From Streptomyces sp. NBC_00557 (GTDB lineage Bacteria > Actinomycetota > Actinomycetes > Streptomycetales > Streptomycetaceae), in NCBI RefSeq assembly GCF_036345995.1, contig NZ_CP107796.1:7812001-7876000 (forward strand): 64,000 nt of DNA, given 5' to 3'. The translations under genes and the position numbers were made by a program. Of the stretch, positions 5,886 to 23,707 are shown one piece after another; within the stretch, counting starts at the first letter, position 1, and the number at the start of each line of letters is the position of its first letter. The notes under the pieces were generated by a model. That model saw only the letters and a list, made by a program, of their open reading frames with translations, searched no databases and had not been told where the DNA came from.

Positions 5886-5946
5886 GATGGGCAGCGGGTA
5901 GGTTCCGGCAAGACGGCGTGCTACCGCCGCGCCACCTGAGTACCCG

Positions 5947-6630
5947 TCAGGGGGCCACGGCGCGGCCGGTCTGCGGAGAGATCCGGCCGGCGCAGAGGCC
6001 CTTGCTCGCCAGCACCTGTGCGATGCGGGGGATCGCCGCGAGCGTGTTGGCGGGCCACTCGTGCATCAGGATGATCTGGCCGTTGGTCAGCCGGGCGTTG
6101 GCCTGGACGATCGCGTCCGTGCTCGCGCCGTTCCAGTCCTGCGAGTCGATGTCCCAGATGATCTGCCGCAGGCCGTACTTGGCCTCCACCGCCTGCACCG
6201 TGGCGTTGGTCTCGCCGTAGGGCGGACGGAACAGCTGCGGAGTGCCGCCGCCCGCACTCGCGACGGCCTGCTGGGTGCGGGAGATCTCGGAGTCGATCTG
6301 CGACTGGCTCAGCTGGGTCAGGTGCGGATGGGTGTAGCTGTGGTTGCCGACCCACATTCCGGCGTTGATCTCGGCCTGCACCTGGGACGGGTAGGCCGCG
6401 GCGTACTGGCCCTCGTTGAACATCGTGGCGCGCAGTCCGTTCTGCCTGAGCGCGTTGAGCAGGGCCGGGGTGTGATCGTTGGACGGGCCGTCGTCGAACG
6501 TGAGTCCTACGTATCCGTTGCAGGTCGCGGCGTGCGCCGGGCCGGCGTCGACGGACAGCGTGACGGTGGCGGCCACGGCCGTCGCGGCGGCGGCCAGGGC
6601 CATGACGGGGGAGCGTGCTGGGGTGCGCAT
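5947..6630 (-). CDS. axeA: Secreted polysaccharide deacetylase, acetylxylan esterase (CE4)
   Basis: Exported carbohydrate esterase of family 4, 227 aa, expected to remove acetyl groups from xylan. Signal peptide 1-35 ends PAHA|ATC. NodB-fold motifs are complete: TFDDGPS (44-50, general base and metal Asp), NHSYTH (96-101, metal His), RPPYG (135-139), WDIDSQDW and LMHEW with the catalytic His near 190. Unlike the S. lividans AxeA it has no carbohydrate-binding module. ATG at 6630 has GAGGAGG upstream. It lies 71 bases after the xylanase stop in the same direction, so the two are probably one xylanolytic operon, like xlnB-axeA in S. lividans. A chitin or peptidoglycan deacetylase is possible but less likely next to a GH11 gene. 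Confidence 0.88.
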   Translation of the reverse strand: MRTPARSPVMALAAAATAVAATVTLSVDAGPAHAATCNGYVGLTFDDGPSNDHTPALLNALRQNGLRATMFNEGQYAAAYPSQVQAEINAGMWVGNHSYTHPHLTQLSQSQIDSEISRTQQAVASAGGGTPQLFRPPYGETNATVQAVEAKYGLRQIIWDIDSQDWNGASTDAIVQANARLTNGQIILMHEWPANTLAAIPRIAQVLASKGLCAGRISPQTGRAVAP

Positions 6631-6701
6631 GCGGGGTTGGTCCTCCTCGTGTCGGCGTGGTGGGGGGCCGAGGTCGGATCGAGCCGTCGCGGAAGCGAAC
6701 G

Positions 6702-7397
6702 TCAGCCGCTCACCGTGATGTTGGAGCTGCCGCTGCTCTGGTAGCCCTCGGTGGCGAGGATCATGTAGTAGGCGAAACTGCCCAGCGGCATGCCGTAGCG
6801 GGCCCACGCGTCGAAGTGGTTGCCGGTGGTGATGGTGCCGCCCGTCCGCTTCGACTGCCGGACGCTCCAGTACTGGTTGAAGGTCCTGGTGCCCTCCACG
6901 GACGGGGCGTTGTACCGCGTGGTCTCGTAGACGTCGTAGGTGCCGCCGTCGGAGGTGACGGTGCCCTTGTAGGTGCCGGTGGGCCGGTAGGTGCCCCAGT
7001 TGTCGACGATGTAGTACTCGACGAGCGGGTTGGAGGTCCATCCGTACAGGGACAGATAGCCGTTGCCGGACGGGTTGAAGCTGCCCGAGTACTGCACGGT
7101 CCGGCGCCCGCCGTTGCTCCAGCCCTTGCCGGCGACGAAGTTCCCGCAGTTCTGCCACCAGGTGCTGTAGTTGCCGCCGGAGCCGAGGGTCATGGAGACC
7201 GACCCGCCGTAGTCCGTCCAGAACGAGTAGTAGAAGCCGTTGTTGGTGCCGGTCTGGTTCGTGGTGATGGTCGTGGCCGCGTGCGCGGTTCCGGGCAGCA
7301 GCAGCCCGGACGCGGTGGCGCCCAGTGCCAGGGCACCGGCGCGGCCGATGAAGCCTCTGCGGCTCATCGAGGGGTCGAACGCGTGGTCCATGTCCAT
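6702..7397 (-). CDS. xlnC: GH11 endo-1,4-beta-xylanase with twin-arginine signal, XlnC-like
   Basis: Secreted endoxylanase, 231 aa. The N-terminus carries a twin-arginine signal (SRRGFIG, R13-R14, then a hydrophobic stretch ending GTAHA at 40), giving a mature protein of 191 aa with no binding module, the layout of the Tat-exported XlnC of S. lividans. The jelly-roll core shows the nucleophile Glu127 in PLVEYYIVD and the acid/base Glu217 in [12 protein letters not shown] at 7397 follows AGGAGG at 7401-7406 on the minus strand. It heads the transcription unit that continues into the acetylxylan esterase. The 310-base upstream region holds two CGAAANTTTCG palindromes, so control by the neighbouring LacI protein is likely. 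Confidence 0.95.
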
Positions 7398-7523
7398 GCT
7401 TCCTCCTGTGTGAAGGCCGATGGGCAGACCCGGCAGCGCGATGGAACGGGTGAACTGGCGCCGCTGCGGGGCGTCGAGCGCCAGTGAGTATGCGCCCGGC
7501 TCGAAAGGGCGGTCAACGGCTTC

Positions 7524-7534
7524 GTTTCCGAAAC
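7524..7534. promoter_or_regulatory. Palindrome GTTTCCGAAAC upstream of the xylanase
   Basis: GTTTC-C-GAAAC is a perfect odd palindrome built from the same TTTC/GAAA halves as the CGAAANTTTCG sites but in the opposite order. It is followed by two further CGAAA halves. It may be an accessory repressor site; evidence is only pattern and position. Confidence 0.35.
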
Positions 7535-7572
7535 TTCAACGAAAGTCTCTCTGTCGGAGCCCTCTCCATTAA

Positions 7573-7583
7573 CGAAACTTTCG
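7573..7583. promoter_or_regulatory. LacI-type operator CGAAACTTTCG
   Basis: Exact copy of the 11-base palindrome CGAAA-N-TTTCG, about 180 bases before the xylanase start codon. Short GAAAnTTTC-type palindromes are known in front of streptomycete xylanase genes. The same sequence recurs at 7692 and 8847, on both sides of the LacI gene, which makes that protein the likely binder. Confidence 0.65.
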
Positions 7584-7691
7584 TCCTCGTGTGCCGGGAC
7601 CACAGGGCTGACCTCTTATGGGTCTTACGGACGCCCCTTCGGAGTGGTATGCAATCCGCACTGGCTCCTCGCGGTGTTCGATCGAACGCTG

Positions 7692-7702
7692 CGAAAGTTT
7701 CG
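7692..7702. promoter_or_regulatory. LacI-type operator CGAAAGTTTCG
   Basis: Second exact CGAAA-N-TTTCG copy, only six bases beyond the stop codon of the LacI gene. It may be an auxiliary operator for looping with the copies at 7573-7583 and 8847-8857, or may belong to the upstream edge of the xylanase promoter. Confidence 0.55.
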
Positions 7703-7708
7703 AAGCTC

Positions 7709-8731
7709 TCAGTCCCGGGCCGGCGGTGCGGTGCTCTGGCGTTCCACGAGATGCGTGGCCAGCTCGATCCGCGAGGCGGACTTCTTGGCGTGCTTCGGTT
7801 GCAGAAGCATACGGGCCGCTTCCTCGGCCATGCGCTGGAGCGGCTGGTGGACGGTGGTCAGCGGCGGGCTCGACCACTGGGCGGGCGGCACGTCGTCGTA
7901 ACCGACCACCGACAGCTCGCCGGGCACGCTGACCCCCAGTACCCGTGCGGCCTCCAGGACGCCGAGGGCCTGCAGGTCGCTCCCGGCGAAGATCGCCGTG
8001 GGCCGGTCCGGGCGCCGCAGCAGGTCCAGCGCGTGCTCGAAACCGCCCTGGACATGGAAGTCGCCGAAACGTATCAGCCCGGGATCCGCGTCGATGCCGG
8101 CCATCGCCAGTGCCGAGCGGTAGCCGTCGAGGCGGGCCAGCGAGCACATCAGGTCCTCGGGGCCGGTGATGATGGCGACGCGGCGGTGGCCCTGGTCGGT
8201 GAGGTGCCGCGTGGCGGCAAGCCCGCCGGCCCAGTTGGCCGAGCCGACGGACGGCACGTCGGGATCGGGGTCGCCGGCCGGGTCCACGATCACGAAGGGT
8301 ATGGCCCGGGAGACGAGCTGCCGCTTCACGTCCTCGGGCAGGGTGGAGAAGACCAGCAGCACCCCCAGGGGCCGGCGGCGCAGCACACCCTCGATCCACT
8401 CGGGCCCGGGAGCCTGCCGCGTCCCGCTCTCCGTCAGCGCGACGGTCGCGTTGTGCTGCTTCGCGACGTTCTCCACGCCCCGGATGAGCTCCATCGCCCA
8501 GACGCTCTCCAGCTCGTGGAACACGATCTCGATGAGGGGCGTCGGCGGCGCGCCCAGCGTCCGCCGGCGGTAGCCGTGGACCTCCAGCAGATGCTCGATC
8601 TTGGCCCGGGTCGCAGAGGACACATCCGAACGACCGTTGAGCACCTTCGAAACTGTCGGAAGCGAGACACCGGCTTCCCTGGCCACGGTCGCCAGTGTGA
8701 CTCTGCGGGCCACCTGGTCTTCTTCGCGCAT
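7709..8731 (-). CDS. bxlR: LacI-family repressor of xylan use, BxlR-like
   Basis: Transcription factor, 340 aa: N-terminal helix-turn-helix (VTLATVAREAGVSLPTVSKV, about 10-30) with the LacI hinge (NGRSDVS), then a periplasmic-binding-protein-like ligand domain ending in the typical SVVGYDDVPPAQWSSPPLTT. ATG at 8731 is preferred; two more upstream in-frame ATGs add only a few residues. It lies divergent from the bxlE-type binding protein gene, as bxlR does in S. thermoviolaceus, and its gene is flanked by exact CGAAANTTTCG palindromes. Expected role: repress importer, GH3 enzyme and xylanase until a xylo-oligosaccharide binds. The effector is inferred from the neighbours. Confidence 0.85.
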   Translation of the reverse strand: MREEDQVARRVTLATVAREAGVSLPTVSKVLNGRSDVSSATRAKIEHLLEVHGYRRRTLGAPPTPLIEIVFHELESVWAMELIRGVENVAKQHNATVALTESGTRQAPGPEWIEGVLRRRPLGVLLVFSTLPEDVKRQLVSRAIPFVIVDPAGDPDPDVPSVGSANWAGGLAATRHLTDQGHRRVAIITGPEDLMCSLARLDGYRSALAMAGIDADPGLIRFGDFHVQGGFEHALDLLRRPDRPTAIFAGSDLQALGVLEAARVLGVSVPGELSVVGYDDVPPAQWSSPPLTTVHQPLQRMAEEAARMLLQPKHAKKSASRIELATHLVERQSTAPPARD

Positions 8732-8846
8732 GGCCGCAGCATAGGCCATGGCCACCGATAACGGTTTGGCCGCGTGGATGCACGACCGTTGACCGATTCT
8801 CCTCCATGCGCCTACTGTCCAGCCGCAGCACTTTCGGCGAAGATGC

Positions 8847-8857
8847 CGAAATTTTCG
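8847..8857. promoter_or_regulatory. LacI-type operator CGAAATTTTCG before bxlE
   Basis: Third exact CGAAA-N-TTTCG site; with one more paired base on each side it is a 13-base palindrome CCGAAATTTTCGG (8846-8858). It lies 14 bases before the chosen bxlE start and touches its ribosome binding site, so bound repressor would block initiation or elongation. A partial copy (CTTTCGGCGAAG) lies just upstream at 8831-8842. Confidence 0.7.
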
Positions 8858-8871
8858 GAAGGGGGATGATC

Positions 8872-10170
8872 ATGCGTGTACGGATGTCCCGGGTGCTCGT
8901 CTGTGCCACGGCACTCGCCCTCTCGGCGAGTCTCGCGGCCTGCGGGAACGGCAGCGGGGGAGGCTCGGCGGACGACGGCAAGATCCATGTGCTGGTCTAC
9001 GGGGACGCCAGCAACAAGGTGGAGAAGCAGATCGTCGACACCTTCAACAAGACCTCGGACGTCAAGGCCGTTCTCGACACCATCCCCGGCGCCGACTACC
9101 AGCAGAAGCTGCAGACGATCATCAGCACTCCGAAGGCGCCCGACATCTTCTTCAACTGGGGCGGCGGCAGCATCCAGCCGTTCGTCAAGGCCGGCCTGCT
9201 GATGCCGCTGGACGACTTCATCAAGAAGGACCCCAGCCTGGACGACAAGTTCCTGCCCGCCGTCTTCAACAGCGCCGTCGTCGACGGCCACCCCTACGGC
9301 ATCCCCATGCGCGGCACCCAGCCGGTCCTGCTGTTCAACAACAAGAACGTGCTCGACAGGGCGGGCGTCAAGCCGCCCCAGACCTGGGACGAACTGCTCG
9401 CCGCGGTGAAGAAGCTGAAGTCCGCGGGCGTCACGCCGATCGCCCTCGGCGGCGGCGACCAGTGGCCGACCCTCATGTGGTTCGAGTACGTCTACGACCG
9501 GGTCGCCGGACCGGGCCTGTTCCAGAAGGCCCTCGGCGGGGACAAGGAGGCGTGGGCCGGCCCGGACAGCAAGAAGGCGCTCGGCATGCTCAAGCAGCTG
9601 GTGGACGCCGGGGCCTTCGGCAAGAACTACGACTCGGTGAAGTACACCAACGGCGCCTCGCCCGCCCTCGTCGCCTCCGGCAAGGCCGGCTTCGAGCTGA
9701 TGGGTTCGTGGTACTACGCCCAGCAGCAGCAGGACGCGAAGGAGTTCGCCGCCAAGGGGCTCGGCTACACCGCGTTCCCGAGCGTCGCCGACGGCAAGGG
9801 CGACACCTCCGACGTGGTCGGCAACACCAACAACTTCTACTCCGTGCTGAAGCGGACCAAGCACCCCGACGCCGTCGCCAGGTTCCTGAAGCTCATGTAC
9901 TCGGACGAGTTCGTGAAGGCCCAGCTGGCCATCGGCAACCTGCCGACGACGACCAACACCCCGAAGTTCCTCGGCCAGTCGGCGAGCCCCGCGTACTCCC
10001 GCTTCCAGTACGACCTCGTCGCCAAGGCCAAGTCCTTCCAGCTCTCCTGGGACCAGGCCTACCCGCCGGCGGCGATGACGCCGATCCACCAGGCCGTCCA
10101 GCAGTTCTTCGACGGACAGATCGACGCGGACGGCTTCATCAAGGCCATGCAGGCCCTCCCCGCCGAGTGA
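8872..10170 (+). CDS. bxlE: Sugar ABC transporter, substrate-binding lipoprotein, BxlE-like
   Basis: Extracellular solute-binding protein of family 1, 432 aa, lipid-anchored to the membrane. Signal peptide with lipobox LAAC, Cys24, followed by a Gly/Ser linker. Aromatic and Asn-rich segments (FFNWGGGSIQPFV, DQWPTLMWFEYVYDR, GNTNNFYSV) are typical of oligosaccharide binders. Several ATGs precede the signal peptide; 8872 is chosen because GGGG at 8861-8864 then has proper spacing. First gene of a tight bxlEFGA operon; the permease gene starts 8 bases after its stop. No ATPase gene is present, so a shared MsiK-type ATPase encoded elsewhere must energise the importer, the normal streptomycete arrangement. 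Confidence 0.9.
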   Translation: MRVRMSRVLVCATALALSASLAACGNGSGGGSADDGKIHVLVYGDASNKVEKQIVDTFNKTSDVKAVLDTIPGADYQQKLQTIISTPKAPDIFFNWGGGSIQPFVKAGLLMPLDDFIKKDPSLDDKFLPAVFNSAVVDGHPYGIPMRGTQPVLLFNNKNVLDRAGVKPPQTWDELLAAVKKLKSAGVTPIALGGGDQWPTLMWFEYVYDRVAGPGLFQKALGGDKEAWAGPDSKKALGMLKQLVDAGAFGKNYDSVKYTNGASPALVASGKAGFELMGSWYYAQQQQDAKEFAAKGLGYTAFPSVADGKGDTSDVVGNTNNFYSVLKRTKHPDAVARFLKLMYSDEFVKAQLAIGNLPTTTNTPKFLGQSASPAYSRFQYDLVAKAKSFQLSWDQAYPPAAMTPIHQAVQQFFDGQIDADGFIKAMQALPAE

Positions 10171-10178
10171 AACCCCTC

Positions 10179-11135
10179 ATGAGCACACAGACCACCAGTG
10201 CTCCGCCCGCCGCCGTGGCCCCCAAGCGGGCCCGGCGCCGGCCGGAGGAAACCCGCGCCGCCCGCGGCACGCGCCCGACCTTCCTCTGGGCGCTGCCCGC
10301 GACCGTCTTCTTCGCCCTCTTCGCCATCGCCCCGCTCGTCGTGGTGGCGGTGCTGTCCTTCATGAGCTGGAACGGCCTGGGATCACCTCGGTTCGTCGGC
10401 CTGGACAACTGGCACCGCATCCTCGACGACCCGGTGATGATCAAAAGCATCTGGCTCACCCTCCTGCTGACCACCCTCGGCGTGGTCCTGCAGACGCCGC
10501 TGAGCATCGTGCTCGGCGTGTGGGCCGCCGGGCACCAGCGCAACCGCGCGGTGCTGTCGGCGATCTACTTCGTGCCGCTGCTGCTGTCCTCCACCGCGGT
10601 GTCGGTGCTGTGGCGGGCGCTGCTGGACCCGAACTTCGGCATCCCCGCACGGATGACCTGGCTGTTCGGGGACGGCAACCTGTTCGGCAGGCAGGCCACC
10701 GCCATCGGCGTGCTCGCCTTCGTCAGCACCTGGCAGTTCACGCCGTTCCACACGCTGATCTACCAGGGCGCCGCCCGCGCGATACCGCAGGTGCTGTACC
10801 AGGCGGCCGAGATCGACGGCGCGGGACGCTACCGCCAGTTCTTCCACATCACCCTGCCGCAGCTGCGCAACTCGATGATCACCTCGATGATCCTGATGGT
10901 CGTCGGCGGGCTCACCACGTTCGAGACGGTCCTCATCCTCACCCAGGGCGGCCCCGGCAGCGACACCACGATCAGCGCCTACTACATGTACCAGAAGGCC
11001 TTCCAGGGCTTCGACTTCGGCGCGGGCTCGGCCATCGCGCTCTGCCTGGTCGTCGCGGCCACGATCATCTCGCTGATCGTCGTCCGCGTCTCCGGCTACG
11101 ACAAGATGCGCAGCGACATGGAGGGTGTCTCATGA
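10179..11135 (+). CDS. bxlF: Sugar ABC transporter permease, BxlF-like
   Basis: Inner-membrane permease of the MalF/UgpA class, 318 aa. A charged Ala/Arg-rich cytoplasmic N-terminus is followed by six hydrophobic helices. The EAA loop that contacts the ATPase is visible as EIDGAGRYRQFFHITLPQL. ATG at 10179 directly follows the bxlE stop. The stop overlaps the next start (ATGA at 11132-11135), so BxlF and BxlG are translationally coupled and should form the heterodimeric channel for the neighbouring binding protein. Confidence 0.92.
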   Translation: MSTQTTSAPPAAVAPKRARRRPEETRAARGTRPTFLWALPATVFFALFAIAPLVVVAVLSFMSWNGLGSPRFVGLDNWHRILDDPVMIKSIWLTLLLTTLGVVLQTPLSIVLGVWAAGHQRNRAVLSAIYFVPLLLSSTAVSVLWRALLDPNFGIPARMTWLFGDGNLFGRQATAIGVLAFVSTWQFTPFHTLIYQGAARAIPQVLYQAAEIDGAGRYRQFFHITLPQLRNSMITSMILMVVGGLTTFETVLILTQGGPGSDTTISAYYMYQKAFQGFDFGAGSAIALCLVVAATIISLIVVRVSGYDKMRSDMEGVS

Positions 11136-11950
11136 GGCGACGCCCCAACTACCTGGCGGGAGCGGGCTCGATCGTCTGGCTCGTCCTGGTCGGCCTGCCG
11201 CTGTACGTCATGCTCGCGGCGACCCTGCGCACCCGGCAGGACTACGCCGAGAACGGACCGCTGTCCTTCCCGCACGACTTCACCCTGCACAACTACACCT
11301 CGGCCTTCGACTCGGGCTTCGGCCGGTACTTCCTCAACACCGTCATCGTCACCGTCTGTGTCGTGGGCGTGGTGCTGCTGCTCGTGCCGCCGCTCGCCTA
11401 CGCGATCGTCCGCAGCCGCAGCCGGGTCACCTCGCAGATCTTCCGGCTGTTCCTGCTGGGCCTGGCCATCCCCGCCCAGGCGGTCATCGTCCCGATGTTC
11501 TACCTGATCAGCGAAGCCGGCCTGTACGACAACCTCCTGGGCATCATCCTGCCCACCGCCGCGTTCTGCCTGCCGATGTCGGCCCTGATCCTCAGCGGCG
11601 CCATGCGCGACATCTCCCCGGAGCTGTTCGAGGCCATGACCGTGGACGGAGCGACCCCGCGGCGGATGTTCTTCCAGCTCGTCGTCCCGCTCTCCCGCGG
11701 CGGCCTGTCCACCATCGTGGTGTTCTCCGCACTCCAGGCCTGGAACGGCTTCCTGTTCCCGCTGGTCCTCACCCAGTCCGACTCGGCCAAGGTGATCACC
11801 CTGGGGCTGTACAACTTCCAGACCGAACACGGCATCGACATCCCCGGCCTGCTGGGCGCCGTGATGCTGTCGATGGTGCCCGTCCTGCTCGTCTACCTGT
11901 TCGCCCGCAGGGCCCTCGTCCAGGGCCTGATGGGCGTGGGAGGAAAGTGA
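11132..11950 (+). CDS. bxlG: Sugar ABC transporter permease, BxlG-like
   Basis: Second permease subunit, MalG/UgpE class, 272 aa, six predicted helices and the EAA loop TVDGATPRRMFFQLVVPL. Start ATG overlaps the bxlF stop; its own stop overlaps the next start (GTGA at 11947-11950). It therefore sits inside a four-gene coupled operon. With BxlF it should form the oligosaccharide channel; the substrate is inferred from the GH3 enzyme and xylanase next door. Confidence 0.92.
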   Translation: MRRRPNYLAGAGSIVWLVLVGLPLYVMLAATLRTRQDYAENGPLSFPHDFTLHNYTSAFDSGFGRYFLNTVIVTVCVVGVVLLLVPPLAYAIVRSRSRVTSQIFRLFLLGLAIPAQAVIVPMFYLISEAGLYDNLLGIILPTAAFCLPMSALILSGAMRDISPELFEAMTVDGATPRRMFFQLVVPLSRGGLSTIVVFSALQAWNGFLFPLVLTQSDSAKVITLGLYNFQTEHGIDIPGLLGAVMLSMVPVLLVYLFARRALVQGLMGVGGK

Positions 11951-14352: not shown

Positions 14353-14660
14353 GACACCGGGCCTCCTCCCGCGCATGGCCGTTCCCCCTGGAAGCCGACA
14401 CAGCCGGCAGAGGGGAACGGCCGTCGTGCGTACGGCACGCACGGCGCCGGGCCGGACCAGGAAGTCCAGCAGCACCTCGTGGTGCTCCGGCCTGGTCGCG
14501 GGGGCGGCCGCACGCAGCGCGACCGCCCCCGTGCGCCTGACGAGCTCCGTCTGACTGTCCGCCGCCGACGGCCGGATCTCCGGCCCGTCCGGCTCGGGTG
14601 TCCGACCAGCCCTTGCCGGGCGACAGCCCCGGCGAGCGGCCGTGTGGCAGGATCAGCGAG
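14353..14660. other. Intergenic stretch after the bxl operon
   Basis: No gene seen. It holds the terminator hairpin at 14377-14422 and then GC-rich sequence without recognisable motif up to the DUF3052 gene. Confidence 0.5.
14377..14422. terminator. Terminator hairpin of the bxlEFGA operon
   Basis: Arms GGCCGTTCCCC (14377-14387) and GGGGAACGGCC (14412-14422) pair perfectly over 11 bases; the 24-base loop contains a smaller GCCG/CGGC stem. It lies 25 bases after the bxlA stop. Confidence 0.7.
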
Positions 14661-16728: not shown

Positions 16729-16743
16729 GACAGGGTCCCAACG

Positions 16744-18156
16744 TCAGGGGCGGGTGGGGTGCGCCGGGCGGTCGCGGCCGACCGTCAGGCGTGCCGGGCG
16801 GTACGGGACGTACGCCGCCCCGTCCAGGCCCAGGGCGGTGGCGGAGCGCTGGAGCGCGGCCGGGGTCGCGGCGTCGTCCCAGTGGCCGGTGGCGACGCGG
16901 TGCTCGAGGGCGTGCAGGGCGGCCACGGTCTCGGCCGTGGTGAACGCGCAGTGGCCCTGCCGCTCCACGTAGGCCTGCCGCAGCAGCGCGCCGTCCCCCG
17001 CCGCGCGCACCCGGTCGCCGAACTGCCGTTCCTGCTCGACCGGGACGAGGTTGTCGGCGGTGGTGTGCACGTCCAGCAGGGGCACGCCGAGGCCCTGGCC
17101 GGCGGACGAGGTGCGCTGCGCGGCACGCACCGCGGCGGGGTCGGCGGTGATCGAGGCGCCCCGGGTGAGGGACGCCAGGTCGGCGCGCAGGTCGAGCCCG
17201 GCCGCCCGGTACAGCGCGCGGACCTGCGGGGCGTGCACGGAACCGGCGAGCAGGCGGCCGTAGTCGACGCCCCGGTTCCAGGAGTTGTTGCCGCCGGCGG
17301 ACTGCTCGACGGCGTACCGGCCGCCCTCGACGAAGGACAGGATGCCCTGCGCGAACCACGCGTACTGCTGCTCCTCCTGGCCCGCCCAGTCGCCCGGGGC
17401 GGGCCGGTCCTGGCCGGGGGCCCAGGCGGGCAGGTTGAGGAAGGCGGCGGCCAGCGCGATCCGGGCGCGGCCCTGCGGGGTGCCCTGCGCGGCGGTCACC
17501 GCGTCGGTGAGCTTCCCGGCGGTGGCGGCCGCGTCGTCGGCGGAGCCGAAGCGCACCAGGCCGACGTCCTGCCCGGGCAGCAGCAGCCGGGCGAGGGTGT
17601 ACTCGGCGTCGAGCTGGTAGTTGTCCAGATCGGTGGCGCCCGCGACCAGCCCGCACAGGCCGAGCGCGCCGTCGACGCGCCCGGCGCCGTCGCGGGCGAT
17701 CTGCGCGTTGACGAGCCCGCCCATGGACTGGCCGACGGCCAGGGTGCGCCGTGGGCTGCCGATCTTCGCGCTGACGGCGTCGAGCGTGGCGAACTGGTCG
17801 CGTTCGGCGCTGTTCAGGGCCCACATCGAGCCATGGGGGTCGTACGACGACCCGGCCATCGCATACCCCTCGGCGAGCAACTCGGTGCGTACGGCGCCGG
17901 AGGGGGCGTCCTGGGCGACGGTGGGGCCGAAGCCGTGGCTGAACAGCAGCAGGGTGCCGTTCCAGTGGGCGGGGACGTCCGCGATCCAGGCGGCGCCGTC
18001 GGCGAGGGTGCCGGTGAGGTGCGCGGTGGTGCCGGTCTCCGCCCGGGCGGCGGGTGCGGGGAGGGCGGTGAGCGCCGCGGACGCCAGGGCGGCGAGGGCG
18101 GCCAGGGCGATGCGCAGGCGGGTACGGGGAGTTCGGGCGCGGGTGCTGGCGGGCAT
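16744..18156 (-). CDS. Secreted alpha/beta hydrolase (possible esterase)
   Basis: Exported serine hydrolase, 470 aa. Sec signal peptide (Arg-rich start, hydrophobic core, PAARA cut site near 40), then an oxyanion-hole region LLLFSHGFGP, nucleophile elbow GQSMGG, a likely acid in LLDVHTTADNLVPV and the base in RQGHCAFTT. ATG at 18156 has GAGGAG upstream, which rules out the longer frame. It heads a probable operon with the DHA2 exporter. It matches no xylanase or classical feruloyl esterase that I can recall in detail; given the neighbours an ester hydrolase acting on plant material is a hypothesis. The fold and export are clear, the substrate is not. Confidence 0.75.
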   Translation of the reverse strand: MPASTRARTPRTRLRIALAALAALASAALTALPAPAARAETGTTAHLTGTLADGAAWIADVPAHWNGTLLLFSHGFGPTVAQDAPSGAVRTELLAEGYAMAGSSYDPHGSMWALNSAERDQFATLDAVSAKIGSPRRTLAVGQSMGGLVNAQIARDGAGRVDGALGLCGLVAGATDLDNYQLDAEYTLARLLLPGQDVGLVRFGSADDAAATAGKLTDAVTAAQGTPQGRARIALAAAFLNLPAWAPGQDRPAPGDWAGQEEQQYAWFAQGILSFVEGGRYAVEQSAGGNNSWNRGVDYGRLLAGSVHAPQVRALYRAAGLDLRADLASLTRGASITADPAAVRAAQRTSSAGQGLGVPLLDVHTTADNLVPVEQERQFGDRVRAAGDGALLRQAYVERQGHCAFTTAETVAALHALEHRVATGHWDDAATPAALQRSATALGLDGAAYVPYRPARLTVGRDRPAHPTRP

Positions 18157-18366
18157 GGAGGTGGCTCCTCGAGGCGGTTGCGGAGCGGAGACCTGGCAGA
18201 TGCTCAGTGCACTGAATGAAGGTGGGGAGGAATGTAGGGCTGATTTCTTGCGGCCGTCAATAGAGTGCACAACATCACGCCGGTGCCGGACGCACCGCCG
18301 TGCGCGGCGGCGACCACCCGCACGACGGCGGGCCCGAGGCCCGCCGCGGGCGCGGTACCAGAGGCG

Positions 18367-19188
18367 CTACGCCGCCGGGATCGTCTCGATCAGCCGGCGC
18401 GCCGCGTCCCGTGCGGGCGCCTCCAGGGCGGCGTGGACCGCGCGGAACGTCTGCTCGGCGGCGGCCGCGGGCCAGTCCGCCGGCAGATGCCGCAGGGGCA
18501 ACCGGGGGTCGCTGCGGATCACCTGGAGCCACTCGGCGGTCAGCCGGAGGCGCAGGGCGAGGGCGTCCTCGCCGGCCGGACGCGCGCCGCCCGAGGCGTA
18601 CGGCTGCCAGGACGCCTGGAAGTCCCGGTAGCGTGCGGCCAGTTCCGGCAGGTCCCAGGTGTCGTCGATCATCTCGGCGATGTCCGTCCCGGTGTCCGCG
18701 CGTGCCCGGAAGACCTTGACGTGCGCCTCCAGGCCGAGTTCGGCGACGATCCCGGAGACGTCCGCCTCGCCCGGCGCGATCCACAGCCCGCTGAACAGCG
18801 CGCCGAAGCCGGCCCAGGTCAACTGCGAACGAAGATCGTGCCGTTGCCGCTGCCACGACTCCGGGAGCGAGAAGCCGAGCAGGGTCCAGGTGCCGTCCCA
18901 GTCCCGGTTGACCGCACCCGTCTTCCAGATGCGCCGCTCGCCGTCGCGCAGGATCGCCTCCGAGCGCTCGGTGAGGCCGACATAGGTCCGCCGGCCCTCG
19001 CGCCGCCGGCTCAGCAGGCCCCGGCCGACCATGCGGGTGAGCGTGGACCGGGTGGCCTGCTCTCCCACTCCGGCGCGCCGGAAGACCTCGATGACGCTGC
19101 CCGTGTAGACGCACACCCCGCGGCCCAGCACCTCGTCACCGAGGAAGCTGAGCAGGAGGGACTGGGGGCGGGGGACAGGACCGGTCAC
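18367..19188 (-). CDS. PaaX-family transcriptional regulator
   Basis: Repressor of the PaaX type, 273 aa. N-terminal winged helix-turn-helix (PRPQSLLLSFLGDEV, then TRSTLTRMVGRGLLSRRREG), central dimer domain and the PaaX C-terminal domain with LAARYRDFQASWQPY. Family members usually sense aryl-CoA thioesters such as phenylacetyl-CoA. GTG at 19188 is the start. It lies between the hydrolase/exporter pair and the MarR gene, all on the minus strand; the long gap of about 210 bases to the hydrolase gene suggests separate promoters. An aryl-CoA effector would fit the CoA-ligase pathway next door. Confidence 0.85.
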   Translation of the reverse strand: MTGPVPRPQSLLLSFLGDEVLGRGVCVYTGSVIEVFRRAGVGEQATRSTLTRMVGRGLLSRRREGRRTYVGLTERSEAILRDGERRIWKTGAVNRDWDGTWTLLGFSLPESWQRQRHDLRSQLTWAGFGALFSGLWIAPGEADVSGIVAELGLEAHVKVFRARADTGTDIAEMIDDTWDLPELAARYRDFQASWQPYASGGARPAGEDALALRLRLTAEWLQVIRSDPRLPLRHLPADWPAAAAEQTFRAVHAALEAPARDAARRLIETIPAA

Positions 19189-19254
19189 GCGGACACCTTA
19201 CGAGGCCGCGCCCTGCCCGACACGCGCGGTGGCCGGCGCCCGGCGCCCCCGCGT

Positions 19255-19839
19255 TCAGTCGAGCCTGTTCTCCGCGACGCGCAGCAGGAGGGCGTGCAGC
19301 GTCTCCCGTTCGGCGGGGGCGAGCGGGGTGAGCAGTTCGTCGGTCACACGCCGGCCCGCCTGGTCCGTGTCGCGCAGGAACGCCCGGCCGCCGTCGGTGA
19401 GAACGACGATACGGCTGCGGCGGTCCTCCGGGGCGGGGCGGCGCTCGGCGAAGCCCAGCTTCTCCAGGTCGTCCACCAGGCCGACGATCGCGCTCGGGTC
19501 GTAGCCGAGCCGCGCGCTCAGCTCGCGCTGGAGCGCGCCCTCGCACGTGGCGAGGAAGCGGAGCACGGCGTAGTGCCGCAGCCGCAGCCCCGACTCCTGC
19601 AGGAACGTGTTGAACAACTGCCCCGAGCGCAGCCCCAGGCGGTACAGCAGATAGCCGGTGTCCGCGTGCAGCGCCCGCATCCACGGCTCGTCGGCGTCGA
19701 TGGGCGTCGGGGTGTCGGTGTGCTGGCGGGCGATGGCGGGCTCCCTGGTCTCGGCCCCCGTGGGCGCCGGTGAGGCTTCCCGAGGGGTGGCTTGTCGGGT
19801 ACGGCGTCCAGCATGGCGTACTGCGAAGGTGGCCAACAA
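19255..19839 (-). CDS. MarR-family regulator, CouR-like by context
   Basis: Winged-helix regulator, up to 194 aa: dimer helices (GYLLYRLGLRSGQLFNTFL), recognition helix region (LSARLGYDPSAIVGLVDDLEKLGF) and wing (RRPAPEDRRSRIVVLT). Start is uncertain: ATG at 19839 gives a low-complexity 50-residue leader and lies inside the operator, ATG at 19683 gives a compact protein of 142 aa; neither has a clear Shine-Dalgarno. Divergent from the SDR/amidohydrolase/ligase/MaoC operon with two operator-like repeats between. CouR, the MarR regulator of the Rhodococcus hydroxycinnamate genes, responds to p-coumaroyl-CoA and holds the same position in a similar gene set. Confidence 0.82.
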   Translation of the reverse strand: MLATFAVRHAGRRTRQATPREASPAPTGAETREPAIARQHTDTPTPIDADEPWMRALHADTGYLLYRLGLRSGQLFNTFLQESGLRLRHYAVLRFLATCEGALQRELSARLGYDPSAIVGLVDDLEKLGFAERRPAPEDRRSRIVVLTDGGRAFLRDTDQAGRRVTDELLTPLAPAERETLHALLLRVAENRLD

Positions 19840-19861
19840 CTATTGACGACAACAATTATTG
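19834..19861. promoter_or_regulatory. Twin 12-base operator for the MarR protein
   Basis: CAACAACTATTG (19834-19845) and CAACAATTATTG (19850-19861) are direct repeats with 11 of 12 bases equal, spaced 16 bases start to start (about one and a half helix turns), and each is an imperfect palindrome (CAA..TTG). This AT-rich patch lies in the divergent MarR/SDR gap and stands out in very GC-rich DNA. It is a strong candidate binding site; it also contains the upstream ATG of the MarR frame, which argues for the shorter start. Confidence 0.65.
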
Positions 19862-19912
19862 CTCTTAGCTTCGATCTCGCCACGACCCCACCCCCATGCG
19901 AAGGGATCGCTC

Positions 19913-20830
19913 GTGCCCACCATCGATCTGACCGGCAAGGTCGCCGTCGTCACCGGCAGCGGCCGGGGCCTCGGCCTGGCCTATGCGCACGCCCTGGCCG
20001 CCCACGGCGCGTCCGTGGTCGTCAACGACGTCGACGACGCCGTGGCCGAGGCGGCCGTCAAGTCCCTCACCGAGGCCGGCGGCACCGCCGTGGCCGAGGT
20101 GGTCCCGGTCGGCACGGCCGAGGCCGCCGACCGGCTGGTCAGCCGCGCCGTCGAGGAGTTCGGCCGGCTCGACGTCCTCGTCACCAACGCGGGCATCCTG
20201 CGCGACAAGGTGCTGTGGAAGATGACCGACGACGACTTCGACGCGGTGCTCACCACCCATCTGAGGGGCACCTTCACCTGCGCCCGCGCCGCCGCCGTCC
20301 GCATGCGCGAGCAGGGCGAGGGCGGCACGCTCGTCCTCGTCGGCTCCCCGGCCGGGCAGCGGGGCAACTTCGGCCAGACCAACTACGCCGCCGCCAAGGC
20401 CGGGATCGCCGCGATGGCCCGCACCTGGTCCATGGAACTGGCCCGCGCCCGCATCACCGTCAACGCGATCGTGCCGGTCGCCGCCACCGCGATGACCGAG
20501 ACCATCCCCGCCTTCGCCCCGTACGTCGAGGCCATGAGGAACGGCGAGCCGCTGCCGGACTTCCTGCGCAAGGGCGAGGGGTTCGGCACCCCCGAGGACT
20601 GCGCGGCGCTCGTCCCCTTCCTGGCCTCCGAGGCCGCCCGCGGCATCACCGGCCAGTGCATCGGGATCGGCGGCGACAAGGTGGCCCTCTGGTCGCATCC
20701 GCAGGAGATCCGGGCCGCCTACGCCGACGGCGGCTGGACGCCGGACACCCTGGCCGCCGCCTGGCACACCTCGGTCGGCGCCGAACCGCAGACCGTGGGC
20801 ATCCCCGCCCCGAAGATCCCGGAGGCGTGA
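19913..20830 (+). CDS. SDR dehydrogenase, 3-hydroxyacyl-CoA dehydrogenase-like (CouN-like)
   Basis: NAD(P)-dependent short-chain dehydrogenase, 305 aa. Cofactor motif TGSGRGLG, NAG in VLVTNAGIL, catalytic Ser in LVGSPAGQ and the Tyr-Lys pair in NYAAAKAG. GTG at 19913 starts the typical VPTIDLTGKVAVVTG; earlier ATGs add sequence not found in the family. First gene of an operon SDR, amidohydrolase, CoA ligase, MaoC hydratase. In the cou pathway such an enzyme oxidises the beta-hydroxyacyl-CoA formed from p-coumaroyl-CoA. The assignment to that step rests on gene order and family, not on residues that I can tie to the substrate. Confidence 0.85.
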   Translation: MPTIDLTGKVAVVTGSGRGLGLAYAHALAAHGASVVVNDVDDAVAEAAVKSLTEAGGTAVAEVVPVGTAEAADRLVSRAVEEFGRLDVLVTNAGILRDKVLWKMTDDDFDAVLTTHLRGTFTCARAAAVRMREQGEGGTLVLVGSPAGQRGNFGQTNYAAAKAGIAAMARTWSMELARARITVNAIVPVAATAMTETIPAFAPYVEAMRNGEPLPDFLRKGEGFGTPEDCAALVPFLASEAARGITGQCIGIGGDKVALWSHPQEIRAAYADGGWTPDTLAAAWHTSVGAEPQTVGIPAPKIPEA

Positions 20831-20832
20831 GC

Positions 20833-21717
20833 ATGCCGACCCTCAACGTCGAGGACCTCGTCGCGATCGACGTCCACACCCACGCGGAGGTGTCCTCCAA
20901 GGGCCACTCCTCCCTGGACGACCACCTGCACGACGCCTCCTCCGCCTACTTCAAGGTCGAGGGCAACCGGAAGCCCACCCTGGAGGAGACCGCCGCCTAC
21001 TACCGCGAACGGCGGATGGCCGCCGTCATCTTCACGGTGGACGCCGAGTCCGCGACCGGCACGGCGCCCGTACCCAACGAGGAGGTCGCCGAGGCCGCGG
21101 CGGCCAACGCGGACGTCCTCATCCCCTTCGCCTCCGTCGACCCCTTCCGCGGCAGGGCGGGCGTGCGGCAGGCCCGGCGGCTGGTCGAGGAGTACGGGGT
21201 GAAGGGCTTCAAGTTCCACCCCAGCATCCAGGGCTTCTTCCCGAACGACCGCGCGGTGGCGTACGGCCTGTACGAGGTGATCGAGGAGACCGGCGCCATC
21301 GCCCTCTTCCACACCGGGCAGACCGGCATCGGCGCCGGCGTGCCCGGCGGCGGAGGCATCCGCCTGAAGTACTCCAACCCGCTCCACGTGGACGATGTGG
21401 CCGCGGACTTCCCGCACATGAAGATCATCCTGGCGCATCCGTCGTTCCCCTGGCAGGACGAGGCGCTCGCGGTGGCGACCCACAAGCCCGGCGTGCACAT
21501 CGACCTCTCCGGCTGGTCGCCGAAGTACTTCCCGCCGCAGCTCGTGCAGTACGCCAACACGCTGCTGAAGGACAAGGTCCTGTTCGGCTCCGACTTCCCG
21601 GTGCTCACCCCGGACCGCTGGCTGGCCGACTTCGCGAAGCTGAACGTCAGGGACGAGGTCAGGCCCAGGATCCTCAAGGAGAACGCGGCCCGGCTGCTCG
21701 GGCTGACGAAACCGTAA
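20833..21717 (+). CDS. Amidohydrolase-2 family hydrolase (CouO-like)
   Basis: Metal-dependent TIM-barrel enzyme of the amidohydrolase_2 family, 294 aa. Metal ligands: IDVHTHAE, KFHPSIQGF, ILAHPSFPW and FGSDFPVLTPDR. ATG lies two bases after the SDR stop. Such proteins include aromatic-acid decarboxylases and C-C hydrolases. In the Rhodococcus hydroxycinnamate cluster an amidohydrolase-family enzyme cleaves the beta-ketoacyl intermediate, and its place here between dehydrogenase and CoA ligase genes fits that role. A 2-amino-3-carboxymuconate semialdehyde decarboxylase-type reaction is the alternative. Confidence 0.83.
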   Translation: MPTLNVEDLVAIDVHTHAEVSSKGHSSLDDHLHDASSAYFKVEGNRKPTLEETAAYYRERRMAAVIFTVDAESATGTAPVPNEEVAEAAAANADVLIPFASVDPFRGRAGVRQARRLVEEYGVKGFKFHPSIQGFFPNDRAVAYGLYEVIEETGAIALFHTGQTGIGAGVPGGGGIRLKYSNPLHVDDVAADFPHMKIILAHPSFPWQDEALAVATHKPGVHIDLSGWSPKYFPPQLVQYANTLLKDKVLFGSDFPVLTPDRWLADFAKLNVRDEVRPRILKENAARLLGLTKP

Positions 21718-21727
21718 GGGGTGACCG

Positions 21728-23236
21728 ATGCGCAACGAGGGACTGGGGTCGTGGCCCGCACGCCGGGCCCGCAAGACCCCGCACCGCACGGCCCTGATCC
21801 ACGGCGGCCGGTCGACCGACTACCGCACCCTGCACACCCGCGTCACCCGCCTCGCCCACGTCCTGCGCTCCCGAGGCGTCCGGCGCGGCGACCGCATCGC
21901 CCACCTCGGCCCCAACCACCCCGCCTACCTGGAGACCCTGTTCGCCGCCGGCACCCTCGGCGCGGTGTTCGTCCCCCTCAACACCCGCCTGGCCGGCCCC
22001 GAGATCGCCTACCAGCTCGCCGACTCCGGAGCCAGGGCCCTGGTGTACGGCCCCGCCCACGCCGGCCTCGTCGCGGGACTGCCGGGCGAGACGGACGTAC
22101 GGACGTACCTCGAGACCGGCGCGGCCTACGAACAGGCGCTGGCGGCCGCGCCGGAGGAACCCATCGACGAACCGGTCGGCCCCGACGACACCTGCCTCAT
22201 CATGTACACCTCGGGCACGACCGGACGCCCCAAGGGCGCGATGCTCACCCACGGCAACATCACCTGGAACGCCGTCAACGTCCTGGTCGACCACGACCTG
22301 ATCGCCGACGAACGCGCCCTGGTCTCCGCCCCGTTGTTCCACACGGCCGGCCTCAACATGCTCACCCTGCCGGTCCTGCTCAAGGGCGGCGCCTGTGTCC
22401 TGGCCGAGGCCTTCGACCCCGGGACGACCCTCGAGATGATCGAACGGCACCGGATCACCTTCATGTTCGGGGTGCCGACGATGTTCGACCAGATCGCCCG
22501 GCACCCCCGCTGGGCGGACGCCGACCTGTCCTCGCTGCGCATCCTCACCTGCGGCGGATCGCCGGTGCCGACCCCGCTCATCACCGCCTACCAGCAGCGC
22601 GGGCTCACCTTCCTGCAGGGCTACGGCATGACCGAGGCCGCGCCCGGCACCCTCTTCCTGGACGCCGAGCACGCCATCGGCAAGGCAGGCTCGGCCGGCG
22701 TACCGCACTTCTTCAGCGACGTACGCGTCGTACGGCCCGACCTCACCCCGGTCGACGTCGGCGAGACCGGCGAGGTGGTGGTGCGCGGACCCCATGTCAT
22801 GCCCGGCTACTGGGGGCTGCCCGAGGAGACGGAGGCCGCCTTCGCCGACGGCTGGTTCCGCAGCGGCGACGCGGCCCGTGTCGACGAGGACGGCTACGTG
22901 TACATCGTCGACCGGATCAAAGACATGATCATCTCGGGCGGCGAGAACGTCTACCCCGCCGAGATAGAGGACCTCCTCCTCGCCCACCCCGGCATCGCCG
23001 AGTGCGCGGTGATCGGTGTCGCGGACGCCGCGTGGGGCGAGGTGCCCCGCGCGATCGTCGTCCCCGCCGACGGGGCCGACCTCGACCCGGACGAGGTCCT
23101 GGCCACGCTGTCCGGGCGGCTGGCCAAGTACAAGATCCCCAAATCGGTGGTCGTCGCGGACGAACTCCCGCGCACCGCCTCCGGAAAACTCCTCAAGTCC
23201 CGCCTCCGCCACCGCTACGGCACCCCGACTCCCTGA
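21728..23236 (+). CDS. AMP-forming acyl/aryl-CoA synthetase (CouL-like)
   Basis: ANL-superfamily ligase, 502 aa, activates a carboxylic acid to its CoA thioester with ATP. P-loop YTSGTTGRPKGAMLTHGN, QGYGMTEAAPG, hinge region SGDAARVDEDGYVYIVDRIK and the C-terminal catalytic Lys in PRTASGKLLK are all present. ATG starts 10 bases after the amidohydrolase stop. The aromatic-acid or fatty-acid choice cannot be read from sequence; beside MaoC, SDR and amidohydrolase genes under a MarR gene, a p-hydroxycinnamate CoA ligase is the best guess, a medium-chain fatty acid ligase the alternative. Confidence 0.9.
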   Translation: MRNEGLGSWPARRARKTPHRTALIHGGRSTDYRTLHTRVTRLAHVLRSRGVRRGDRIAHLGPNHPAYLETLFAAGTLGAVFVPLNTRLAGPEIAYQLADSGARALVYGPAHAGLVAGLPGETDVRTYLETGAAYEQALAAAPEEPIDEPVGPDDTCLIMYTSGTTGRPKGAMLTHGNITWNAVNVLVDHDLIADERALVSAPLFHTAGLNMLTLPVLLKGGACVLAEAFDPGTTLEMIERHRITFMFGVPTMFDQIARHPRWADADLSSLRILTCGGSPVPTPLITAYQQRGLTFLQGYGMTEAAPGTLFLDAEHAIGKAGSAGVPHFFSDVRVVRPDLTPVDVGETGEVVVRGPHVMPGYWGLPEETEAAFADGWFRSGDAARVDEDGYVYIVDRIKDMIISGGENVYPAEIEDLLLAHPGIAECAVIGVADAAWGEVPRAIVVPADGADLDPDEVLATLSGRLAKYKIPKSVVVADELPRTASGKLLKSRLRHRYGTPTP

Positions 23237-23251
23237 AGAAGAAGGCGACTC

Positions 23252-23707
23252 ATGAGCATCACCGTCAACGGCCTGGACGAACTGAAGAAGCTCGCCGGCA
23301 CCGACCTCGGCACCAGCGAGTGGATCGAGGTCACGCAGGAGCGGATCGACACCTTCGCCGACGCCACCGGCGACCACCAGTGGATCCACACCGACCCCGA
23401 GCGGGCGGCCCAGGGCCCCTTCGGCGCACCGATCGCGCACGGCTACCTCACCCTGTCCCTGTTCATCCCCCTCTTCACCGAACTGCTGGACGTGCAGGGC
23501 GTCACCACCAAGGTCAACTACGGCCTGAACAAGGTCCGTTTCCCCGCACCCGTGAAGGCGGGCTCCCGCATCCGGCTCGCCGCCCGCCTCACCTCGGTCG
23601 AGGACGTGCCCGGCGGCGTCCAGATCACCGTCGACGGCACGATCGAGATCGAGGACGGCGCCAAGCCGGCCGCGGTGCTGCAGAGTCTGTCCCGCTTCTA
23701 CGCCTGA
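23252..23707 (+). CDS. MaoC-like enoyl-CoA hydratase (CouM-like)
   Basis: Single hot-dog-fold hydratase, 151 aa. The catalytic hydratase-2 motif is intact: DATGDHQWIHTDPERA followed by GPFGAPIAHGYLTLSL. ATG lies 15 bases after the ligase stop, with AAGAAGGCG upstream. Last gene of the operon. It should add water to the enoyl-CoA made by the ligase, giving the beta-hydroxyacyl-CoA for the SDR enzyme; with the amidohydrolase this completes a side-chain shortening route of the cou type. Confidence 0.9.
   Translation: MSITVNGLDELKKLAGTDLGTSEWIEVTQERIDTFADATGDHQWIHTDPERAAQGPFGAPIAHGYLTLSLFIPLFTELLDVQGVTTKVNYGLNKVRFPAPVKAGSRIRLAARLTSVEDVPGGVQITVDGTIEIEDGAKPAAVLQSLSRFYA

Follow-up and report, generated by a model that had tools for sequence, protein, structure and literature searches.

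Neighbouring xylan and cou-type hydroxycinnamate modules in Streptomyces sp. NBC_00557, and a secreted hydrolase linked to cou across the genus

Overall organization of the locus

The window analysed here is a 64,000-nucleotide stretch of the Streptomyces sp. NBC_00557 genome (NZ_CP107796.1, positions 7,812,001–7,876,000). The genes at 5947–23707 very probably (a probability of roughly 0.8) form two separate, already known catabolic modules that are neighbours by chance: a xylan module at 5947–14352 and a cou-type hydroxycinnamate module at 15139–23707. The pairing of the two sets looks peculiar to this strain. What is new beyond an earlier, sequence-only reading of this DNA is an association, seen throughout the genus, between cou and a secreted hydrolase encoded in the second module.

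Every gene named in the sequence-only reading was confirmed at 5947–23707 by gene calls and profile matches; the gene caller was a simple G+C-based script and the starts are approximate. The best Pfam match has E ≤ 7e-13 for each gene except the secreted hydrolase and a 138-residue ORF, which places the set beyond chance, and gene order within each half is kept in other genomes. The 138-residue ORF (14598–15014, plus strand), which was absent from the earlier list, sits in the junction between the modules. It has no Pfam match from which a function could be assigned, and DNA resembling it occurs elsewhere in other genomes among the matches listed. An Rfam search of the window gave no match at the gathering thresholds.

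The xylan module

The module begins with two predicted secreted enzymes on the minus strand: a CE4 polysaccharide deacetylase of the acetyl-xylan esterase type (5947–6603; PF01522; best solved relative 2cc0, ‘acetyl-xylan esterase’, 351 bits) and a GH11 endo-xylanase (6702–7397; PF00457, 266 bits) with a twin-arginine-like signal (TIGR01409, 20 bits against a cut-off of 16.7). The BxlR-like LacI-family regulator (7709–8755, minus strand; PF00356 and PF13377) was assigned from its divergence from the importer genes and from motif conservation. The importer is encoded on the plus strand by a solute-binding lipoprotein of the xylo-oligosaccharide type (8806–10170, with the start probably at 8884; PF01547; best solved relative 3vxb, 406 bits) and two ABC permeases (10176–11135 and 11132–11950; both PF00528). 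The last gene, also on the plus strand, encodes a GH3 β-xylosidase/α-L-arabinosidase (11950–14352; NF052329, 1179 bits against an equivalog cut-off of 1050; solved relative 7zb3, a β-xylosidase) with no evident signal. The arrangement is that of a bxl cluster, with LacI divergent from the binding protein, two permeases and GH3, together with CGAANNTTTCG operators.

Three perfect matches to the BxlR-type motif are present, all in the xylan block; the rest of the 64 kb has none. The first predicted operator, CGAANNTTTCG at 7573–7583, lies upstream of GH11, the second is at 7692–7702 and the third, at 8847–8857, falls between the LacI and binding-protein genes if the latter starts at 8884. With one mismatch, the motif occurs in three further places: in the LacI gene (8648), in the MaoC coding sequence (23347) and at 60057. 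The pair of sites upstream of GH11 is also found in two other loci (L070 and L071), in which the site at 8847–8857 is likewise conserved; in L071 the corresponding pair lies next to the start of a GH10 xylanase gene. Two other genomes (G111 and G020) carry the xylan block at 87–95% identity with the BxlR-type sites conserved and have no cou match. The GH11, CE4, BxlR-type LacI, importer and GH3 genes and the BxlR-type sites thus bear out the earlier assignment of 5947–14352 to xylan.

In Streptomyces sp. SirexAA-E (PMC12772271), BxlR-BxlEFG-BxlA correspond to SACTE_0531–0535 and the GH11/CE4 pair to SACTE_0357/0358. The two strains share the BxlR-BxlEFG-BxlA set, a GH11 gene adjoining CE4 and the CGAANNTTTCG motif upstream of both. 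They differ in that the SirexAA-E GH11/CE4 pair lies about 170 genes from bxl by locus tag, whereas the two are adjacent here, in G111 and in G020. Cleavage and deacetylation of xylan would fall to the secreted GH11 and CE4 enzymes, uptake of oligomers of the xylobiose type to the ABC importer and their splitting inside the cell to GH3; the arrival of xylo-oligomers would cause BxlR to let go of the three CGAANNTTTCG operators. By relation to 3vxb only, we infer that the importer is one for xylobiose and that the LacI regulator responds to it.

The cou-type operon

The sequence of 19255–23707 is that of a predicted cou-type hydroxycinnamate operon. A MarR-family regulator (19255–19839, minus strand; start uncertain, conserved core from 19680) is divergent from four plus-strand genes: an SDR dehydrogenase in the CouN position (19913–20830; PF13561/PF00106), a CouO-like amidohydrolase (20830–21717; PF04909; no NCBIfam family), a CouL-like hydroxycinnamate-CoA ligase (21728–23236) and a CouM-like MaoC hydratase (23252–23707; PF01575). 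Identities to the R. jostii proteins, for which strain NBRC 16295 was used and RHA1 was not among the loci compared, are 43% for MarR, 63% for SDR, 61% for the amidohydrolase, 47% for the ligase and 62% for MaoC. Among solved structures, the ligase shares 62% identity with 8weu, a companion of 8wev (‘Feruloyl-CoA Synthetase’). The best solved relatives of the MarR protein are 5cyv/3fm5. In the reciprocal search that the sequence-only reading had proposed, it is the reciprocal best match of CouR among 18 matches in the genome (2.2e-17 versus 2.9e-11), and Arg36 and Arg38 of CouR are kept in the window copy and in 17 other aligned Streptomyces copies. Together with the operator described below, the gene order and the feruloyl-CoA-synthetase-type ligase, these matches uphold the earlier cou assignment and point to a CouR orthologue.

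The predicted CouR-type operator ATTGACGACAACAAT (19842–19856) agrees with the CouR box at nine of ten positions and aligns in register with the Rhodococcus and Saccharopolyspora boxes. Allowing A or T at the differing position gives two occurrences genome-wide, one in the MarR/SDR promoter and the other at G000:C1:6461749; the latter, outside the window, is the sole 10/10 box. Just downstream of it is an ORF that, on reading its translation, resembles a CaiB-type protein. Exact ATTG-N7-CAAT is present in 11 of 17 other Streptomyces promoters and in nine of the 15 others aligned; some of the 12 promoters without it lack it owing to a mis-called start.

The beta-oxidative route has been described for RHA1 (PMC4737184). 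Like the R. jostii cou genes (CouR, CouN, CouO, CouM, CouL and CouT), the window has MarR divergent from SDR and amidohydrolase with MaoC, in conserved SDR-amidohydrolase-MaoC order, the two CouR arginine residues and an operator of the ATTGA-N5-TCAAT type over the −35 element (PMC4737184). Unlike in R. jostii, the ligase gene is part of the operon and stands between those for the amidohydrolase and MaoC, the second half of the operator is ACAAT, and a DHA2 transporter takes the place of the MHS symporter, with a secreted hydrolase and PaaX in addition.

The orthologous operon of S. scabies, SCAB_15591–SCAB_15621, has been published as induced by ferulate and coumarate, with all four proteins detected only with ferulate (PMC6904314, in the part available). 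Judged by locus tags, its four enzymes and their order are those of the window, and the published qPCR primers match the window ligase and MaoC genes with one mismatch each. The operon is not named cou in that part of the report, which also mentions no adjoining hydrolase or xylan genes. The comparison connects the S. scabies ferulate-induced genes with the cou pathway of Rhodococcus and adds a predicted operator.

The S. scabies authors' names for these enzymes, feruloyl-CoA synthetase and hydratase (PMC6904314), and the similarity of the ligase to 8weu would fit a retro-aldol (Fcs/Ech) route from ferulate to vanillin. We consider such a route improbable: the operon contains no crotonase-type hydratase/lyase, and the MaoC, SDR and CouO-like amidohydrolase genes in their conserved order fit the beta-oxidation of RHA1 (PMC4737184). 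By beta-oxidation, the CoA ligase would activate hydroxycinnamates, MaoC would then hydrate and SDR oxidize them, and cleavage by the amidohydrolase would yield a hydroxybenzoate and acetyl-CoA; the first CoA thioester would release the CouR-type MarR repressor. The published induction of the S. scabies orthologues bears on a predicted derepression by p-coumaroyl-CoA and on a ligase requirement for growth on coumarate. Elsewhere in the genome are pcaH and genes for a VanA_C and a PobA-like protein (the latter 508.9 bits, below the curated cut-off of 538.7), and these could finish the pathway.

The secreted hydrolase and its neighbours

Between the junction and the cou operon are three minus-strand genes, encoding a DHA2-type MFS transporter (15139–16728; PF07690; TIGR00711, 136.7 bits, below the cut-off of 230.2), a secreted α/β hydrolase (16744–18156) that the transporter gene follows after 15 nt, and a PaaX-family regulator (18367–19188; PF20803, PF08223 and PF07848; TIGR02277, 159.6 bits, below the cut-off of 264.6). 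The hydrolase has a weak DUF6351 ‘tannase-like’ match (23.3 against a cut-off of 22.4); its Pfam matches have E-values of 7e-6 (under the cut-off) and 3e-5 (just over it). A sequence search found no relative in the PDB, and no NCBIfam family matched. The proposed triad S144-D368-H402 is invariant in 48 hydrolase sequences. This invariance, the DUF6351 match, the structure model (pLDDT 79.4) and the linkage to cou led us to propose an aromatic-ester hydrolase.

Among the best Foldseek matches in the PDB by E-value is the tannase/feruloyl esterase family (fungal FaeB, FAE-C and MHETase), with TM-scores of ~0.37, while VIA-align ranked the LipA esterase and S9-type hydrolases first. As modelled, the fold is common to many α/β hydrolases and does not fix the substrate. 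The CS-D-HC motif has a Cys residue directly before the nucleophilic Ser and another directly after the catalytic His. The hydrolase shares Ser-Asp-His and the Cys residue after the presumed catalytic His (His402-Cys403) with the tannase/feruloyl esterase family but has no Cys before its nucleophile: residue 143 is Gln, so that only half of the motif is present, and in four relatives it is Arg or Thr. The invariant Cys168 might serve as the Cys partner.

The genus was sampled as 150 genomes, one per species. The hydrolase was found in 38, of which 36 also have cou, and within 5 kb of cou in 13; ten candidates per genome were scored in the hydrolase search and six in a second search, and weaker copies may be missed. 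The surroundings were examined for 34 of 45 matches. In 18 of these 34 loci the neighbour is an MHS-type symporter, of a group that also adjoins the Rhodococcus cou ligase, and in seven neither transporter was called alongside, one of which (L074) has a DHA2 match and a short gene call.

A degenerate CouR-like box, ATTGACGGCCGCAAG (18247–18261, minus strand), matches eight of ten positions and overlaps the −35 element of the predicted σ70 promoter of the hydrolase gene; 11 of 511 other genes have a box scoring this high. A cou-like motif, defined after seeing the sites, lies upstream of 16/18 SDR, 5/18 MHS transporter and 4/34 hydrolase genes and 0/557 other genes, leaving 30 of the 34 hydrolase genes without it. 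CouR perhaps controls the hydrolase.

Transporters of the DHA2 class are usually exporters. The three genes could be an unrelated cassette, acting for instance to export and hydrolyse something toxic, and be only incidental neighbours of cou in some species. PaaX-hydrolase-DHA2 stands apart from cou in six loci (L091, L092, L093, L096, L097 and L099) whose genomes have cou elsewhere, and the fold leaves the substrate unfixed. Against this, 36 of the 38 hydrolase genomes have cou, over half of the loci examined carry the symporter of the Rhodococcus cou-ligase group and the promoter motif is shared with cou in part of the loci, and we regard an unrelated cassette as rather unlikely. Most likely, the hydrolase, MFS transporter and PaaX genes are part of the cou module at 15139–23707.

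The best reading of the hydrolase is as a putative extracellular aromatic-ester hydrolase feeding cou, which would hydrolyse esters outside the cell to free aromatic acids. Its family is a candidate for the extracellular step so far lacking in the picture of hydroxycinnamate use by streptomycetes, and a good new one for cutting phenolic acids loose from plant cell walls. More tentatively, the CouR regulon may extend outwards, with the hydrolase representing an unassigned class of extracellular hydroxycinnamoyl esterase that, with its transporter, is expressed from a CouR-type operator and supplies the cou pathway with freed coumarate and ferulate, and that now stands, after two independent placements, next to genes for oligosaccharide use (here and in G091). 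Hydrolase substrate and transport direction are predictions, as are the enzyme activities, inducers and operator function given above.

Relationship between the two modules

A single functional locus through which the sugars and phenolics of feruloylated or coumaroylated arabinoxylan would be used in co-ordination, as the sequence-only reading envisaged, is very improbable, even with all of the needed parts within 18 kb. A GH3 or GH11 gene is found within 100 kb of cou in one of 54 cou-bearing genomes (this one), and the junction is spanned in one of 392 genomes among the matches listed, from a search in which the strongest matches, two candidates per genome, were scored. Of the 54, 29 (this genome included) have ten or fewer contigs, and of these 24 carry GH3 and 17 GH11; in draft cou genomes adjacency across contig ends is not visible. 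As far as the sample goes, the adjacency is confined to this strain, the outcome that the earlier reading had itself named as refuting it; with one genome sampled per species, sister strains that share it may have escaped notice. The modules converge, and their regulators and operators are separate. G091 has a hydrolase that shares 81% identity with that of the window and lies beside a LacI/ABC/GH3 sugar cluster, away from cou, which would favour a single locus, but that cluster is only distantly alike (GH3 56%, LacI 45%, binding protein 38%) and has no BxlR-type site.

Two candidate features were rejected: a conserved 18-kb combined locus, on the counts of 1/54 and 1/392 among the matches listed, and an operator common to both halves, with perfect BxlR-type sites in the xylan block only and the CouR-type box only in the MarR/SDR promoter and at G000:C1:6461749. 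The earlier reading knew of no description of such a combined streptomycete locus, and none was found by title or abstract start in the open-access literature listed; the cou half is already described in S. scabies (PMC6904314).

Since the combined locus is mostly a juxtaposition, no coupled arabinoxylan regulon is to be claimed from it. At the genome level, GH11 is above expectation with cou, in 32 of 54 cou genomes versus 31 of 96 others, from genome lists and coordinates transcribed by hand, as were those behind the hydrolase–cou and adjacency counts. The co-occurrence of GH11 and GH3 with cou (p = 0.002 and 0.0002, respectively; Fisher test, shared ancestry ignored) leaves a loose ecological link between the two.

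Gene organization

All of the genes named in a sequence-only reading of this region, which had proposed a single locus coupling the use of xylan sugars and phenolics, were found at the positions assigned to them. At the left end of the locus, the CE4 esterase and GH11 xylanase genes lie on the minus strand, as does the LacI gene, which is divergent from the plus-strand genes for a binding protein, two permeases and a GH3 enzyme (xylan module, 5947–14352). The hydroxycinnamate module (15139–23707) comprises minus-strand genes for a DHA2 transporter, a secreted α/β-hydrolase (16744–18156), PaaX and MarR, the last divergent from the plus-strand SDR, amidohydrolase, CoA ligase and MaoC genes. The label 'secreted' derives from N-termini read by eye and, for GH11, additionally from TIGR01409. 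The modules converge tail to tail at about 14353–15138, and this junction holds an orphan plus-strand ORF of 138 residues (14598–15014) without a Pfam match; DNA that is 83–87% identical to it is found elsewhere in other Streptomyces genomes. A large PAS–GAF–SpoIIE–HATPase protein is encoded close to the xylan module (2084–4516).

The xylan module

The predicted role of the CE4, GH11, LacI, importer and GH3 proteins in xylan use is supported by solved relatives, an equivalog match and BxlR-type sites. The best solved relative of the CE4 protein is 2cc0, deposited as an acetyl-xylan esterase (351 bits, with the match running from residue 26 through the C terminus), and that of the binding protein is 3vxb (406 bits), which we take to be BxlE, the xylobiose-binding protein of S. 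thermoviolaceus. The GH3 protein passes the NCBIfam equivalog for β-xylosidase/α-L-arabinosidase (1179 bits, cut-off 1050) and also matches solved β-xylosidases. In strain SirexAA-E, CGAANNTTTCG is the motif of the GH10 and GH11 promoters and is present upstream of the BxlR gene too (PMC12772271). Perfect copies of CGAANNTTTCG occur at 7573, 7692 and 8847 of the 64 kb window searched, all three within the xylan module. Two other genomes of the genus (G111 and G020) have the same block with 87–95% protein identity and three CGAANNTTTCG-type sites at equivalent places, and neither gave a match in the amidohydrolase search of 150 genus genomes. Because of these relatives, the BxlR-type sites and the shared block, the module is a unit of a known kind. 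Of the 59 sampled genomes with both GH11 and GH3, 10 (window genome counted) have them less than 15 kb apart.

Two of the BxlR-type sites (7573–7702), 119 bp apart, enclose no gene. A further gene starts at the equivalent site pair in two compared loci, L070 and L071; in L071 it is a GH10 xylanase gene between GH11 and LacI, with its start beside the pair, and the window lacks that gene. A GH10 gene was either lost from the window lineage, with its operators left behind, or gained on the side of the compared loci.

The hydroxycinnamate module

Assignment of the second module to the cou type, the p-hydroxycinnamate pathway of Rhodococcus, is supported by the regulator, its predicted operator, the gene order and the closest relative of the ligase. 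The best solved relatives of the MarR protein are 5cyv and 3fm5; 5cyv is presumably the CouR structure, and its residues 36 and 38 agree with the CouR paper. The reciprocal search, of a CouR stretch against this genome, returned the window MarR first of 18 matches (2.2e-17 versus 2.9e-11). In CouR, Arg36 and Arg38 are essential for DNA binding, and the CouR box, cATTGA-N5-TCAATg, lies over the −35 (PMC4737184). Both arginines are retained by the window protein and by all 17 further Streptomyces copies in the alignment; the recognition residues are Asp-Ser-Ala, versus Asp-Ser-Gln in R. jostii. The predicted box in the MarR/SDR promoter, ATTGACGACAACAAT at 19842, agrees at 9/10 positions and aligns in register with the Rhodococcus and Saccharopolyspora boxes; exact ATTG-N7-CAAT is found in 11/17 other Streptomyces loci and in 9/15 others aligned. 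With A or T at the differing position, the pattern occurs at two places genome-wide. The better of these, ATTGATTGACTCAAT (10/10; G000:C1:6461749, about 1501–1515 of L110, a locus in the window genome G000), is the only perfect box in the genome, and the ORF directly downstream reads like a CaiB-type CoA transferase.

In R. jostii (NBRC 16295, and not RHA1, is the strain among the compared loci), MaoC, amidohydrolase and SDR stand in the same order opposite MarR, with 62, 61 and 63% identity. The R. jostii ligase (47% identity) is some kilobases away, whereas in the window the ligase sits within the operon; in two Nocardia loci (L042 and L044) the ligase adjoins MaoC. The window ligase shares 62% identity with 8weu across 498 residues, and the companion entry of 8weu, 8wev, is named feruloyl-CoA synthetase.

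There is a precedent in S. scabies, where four proteins, namely SCAB_15591 (MaoC), 15601 (feruloyl-CoA synthetase), 15611 (amidohydrolase) and 15621 (dehydrogenase), belong to those detected only in the presence of ferulic acid and the expression of 15601 and 15591 rises more than 100-fold with ferulic acid and 300-fold with coumaric acid (available sections of PMC6904314). With one mismatch each, the published S. scabies qPCR primers match the window at 22184 in the ligase gene and at 23516 in the MaoC gene, and the ligase and MaoC of the two genomes are therefore orthologues. Since the S. scabies orthologues respond to ferulate and coumarate, the cou half has already been published in function, without the name cou in those sections (PMC6904314). 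S. lividans is reported to have no natural ability to use hydroxycinnamates (PMC10731712).

Juxtaposition of the two modules

Among the 150 genomes sampled from the genus, the amidohydrolase is found in 54, GH3 in 99 and GH11 in 63; 46 of the 54 also have GH3 and 32 have GH11. GH3 or GH11 lies less than 100 kb from the amidohydrolase in only one of the 54, the window genome itself. Ten contigs or fewer make up 29 of these 54 genomes, 24 of them with GH3, and fragmentation is therefore not the explanation for the missing adjacency. A 1.7 kb query spanning the junction (GH3 end, 138-residue ORF and DHA2 end) was searched against 392 genomes of the genus, with two candidates scored per genome. 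At least 182 genomes match some part of it; among the matches listed, the window genome alone is matched straight through, and those from other genomes are each confined to a single one of the three parts. No operator common to both modules was found in the window with the BxlR-type and CouR-type patterns. Conservation of the adjacency was thus not borne out in these genomes, nor was coupling into one locus supported, and because of the single adjacent case, the junction spanned in one genome among the matches listed and the failure to find a common operator, we conclude that the two modules are a juxtaposition in this lineage. At the genome level, cou co-occurs weakly with GH11 (p = 0.002) and GH3 (p = 0.0002), which fits a common plant-litter habitat; ancestry and genome size confound this association.

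The secreted hydrolase

The notable remainder is the cou-linked secreted hydrolase. It is present in 38/150 genomes (E 1e-60), 36 of which have cou (odds ratio 94), and lies less than 5 kb from the amidohydrolase in 13 genomes and less than 20 kb in 15. Its direct neighbour in 34 loci is an MHS-type symporter (18), a DHA2 transporter (nine, window counted) or neither (seven), and a PcaR/PobR-kind IclR regulator is near it in some loci. L100 and L103 have a 4 nt overlap between the ORFs of symporter and hydrolase. The MHS transporter cluster includes a Rhodococcus gene that adjoins the cou ligase and whose own promoter has a 10/10 CouR box in L032–L036. The published couT has a CouR box (PMC4737184), and we infer that this Rhodococcus transporter is couT.

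In Streptomyces, ATTGACG-N-C-NN-CA occurs within 300 nt upstream of 16/18 SDR, 5/18 MHS transporter, 4/34 hydrolase and 0/557 other genes, counts that are not a blind test as the pattern was derived from these very sites. A longer form is found in the window at the cou and hydrolase promoters only. Because the pattern was drawn from the same sites, the motif common to both promoters is no more than suggestive of a link to CouR control. Against the CouR box, the site at the hydrolase scores 8/10, a level also reached by 11/511 other genes. PaaX, which directly adjoins the hydrolase in 20 of the 34 loci, could regulate it instead of CouR. A PaaX-like protein (53% to the window PaaX) is encoded directly beside the cou MarR in Nocardia carnea (L044, 8885 onwards), so the link between PaaX and cou may reach beyond Streptomyces.

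Elsewhere in the window, 33015–34346 encodes an Erythromycin-esterase family protein (PF05139, 412 bits) that scores 35.7 bits against the EreB model, for which 750 bits are needed, and is probably not an EreB-kind resistance enzyme. In L089 (genome G091, 5772–15627), a close relative of the hydrolase adjoins both a sugar cluster of LacI/ABC/GH3 type and a short-chain dehydrogenase, which has a relative at 26042–26923 of the window.
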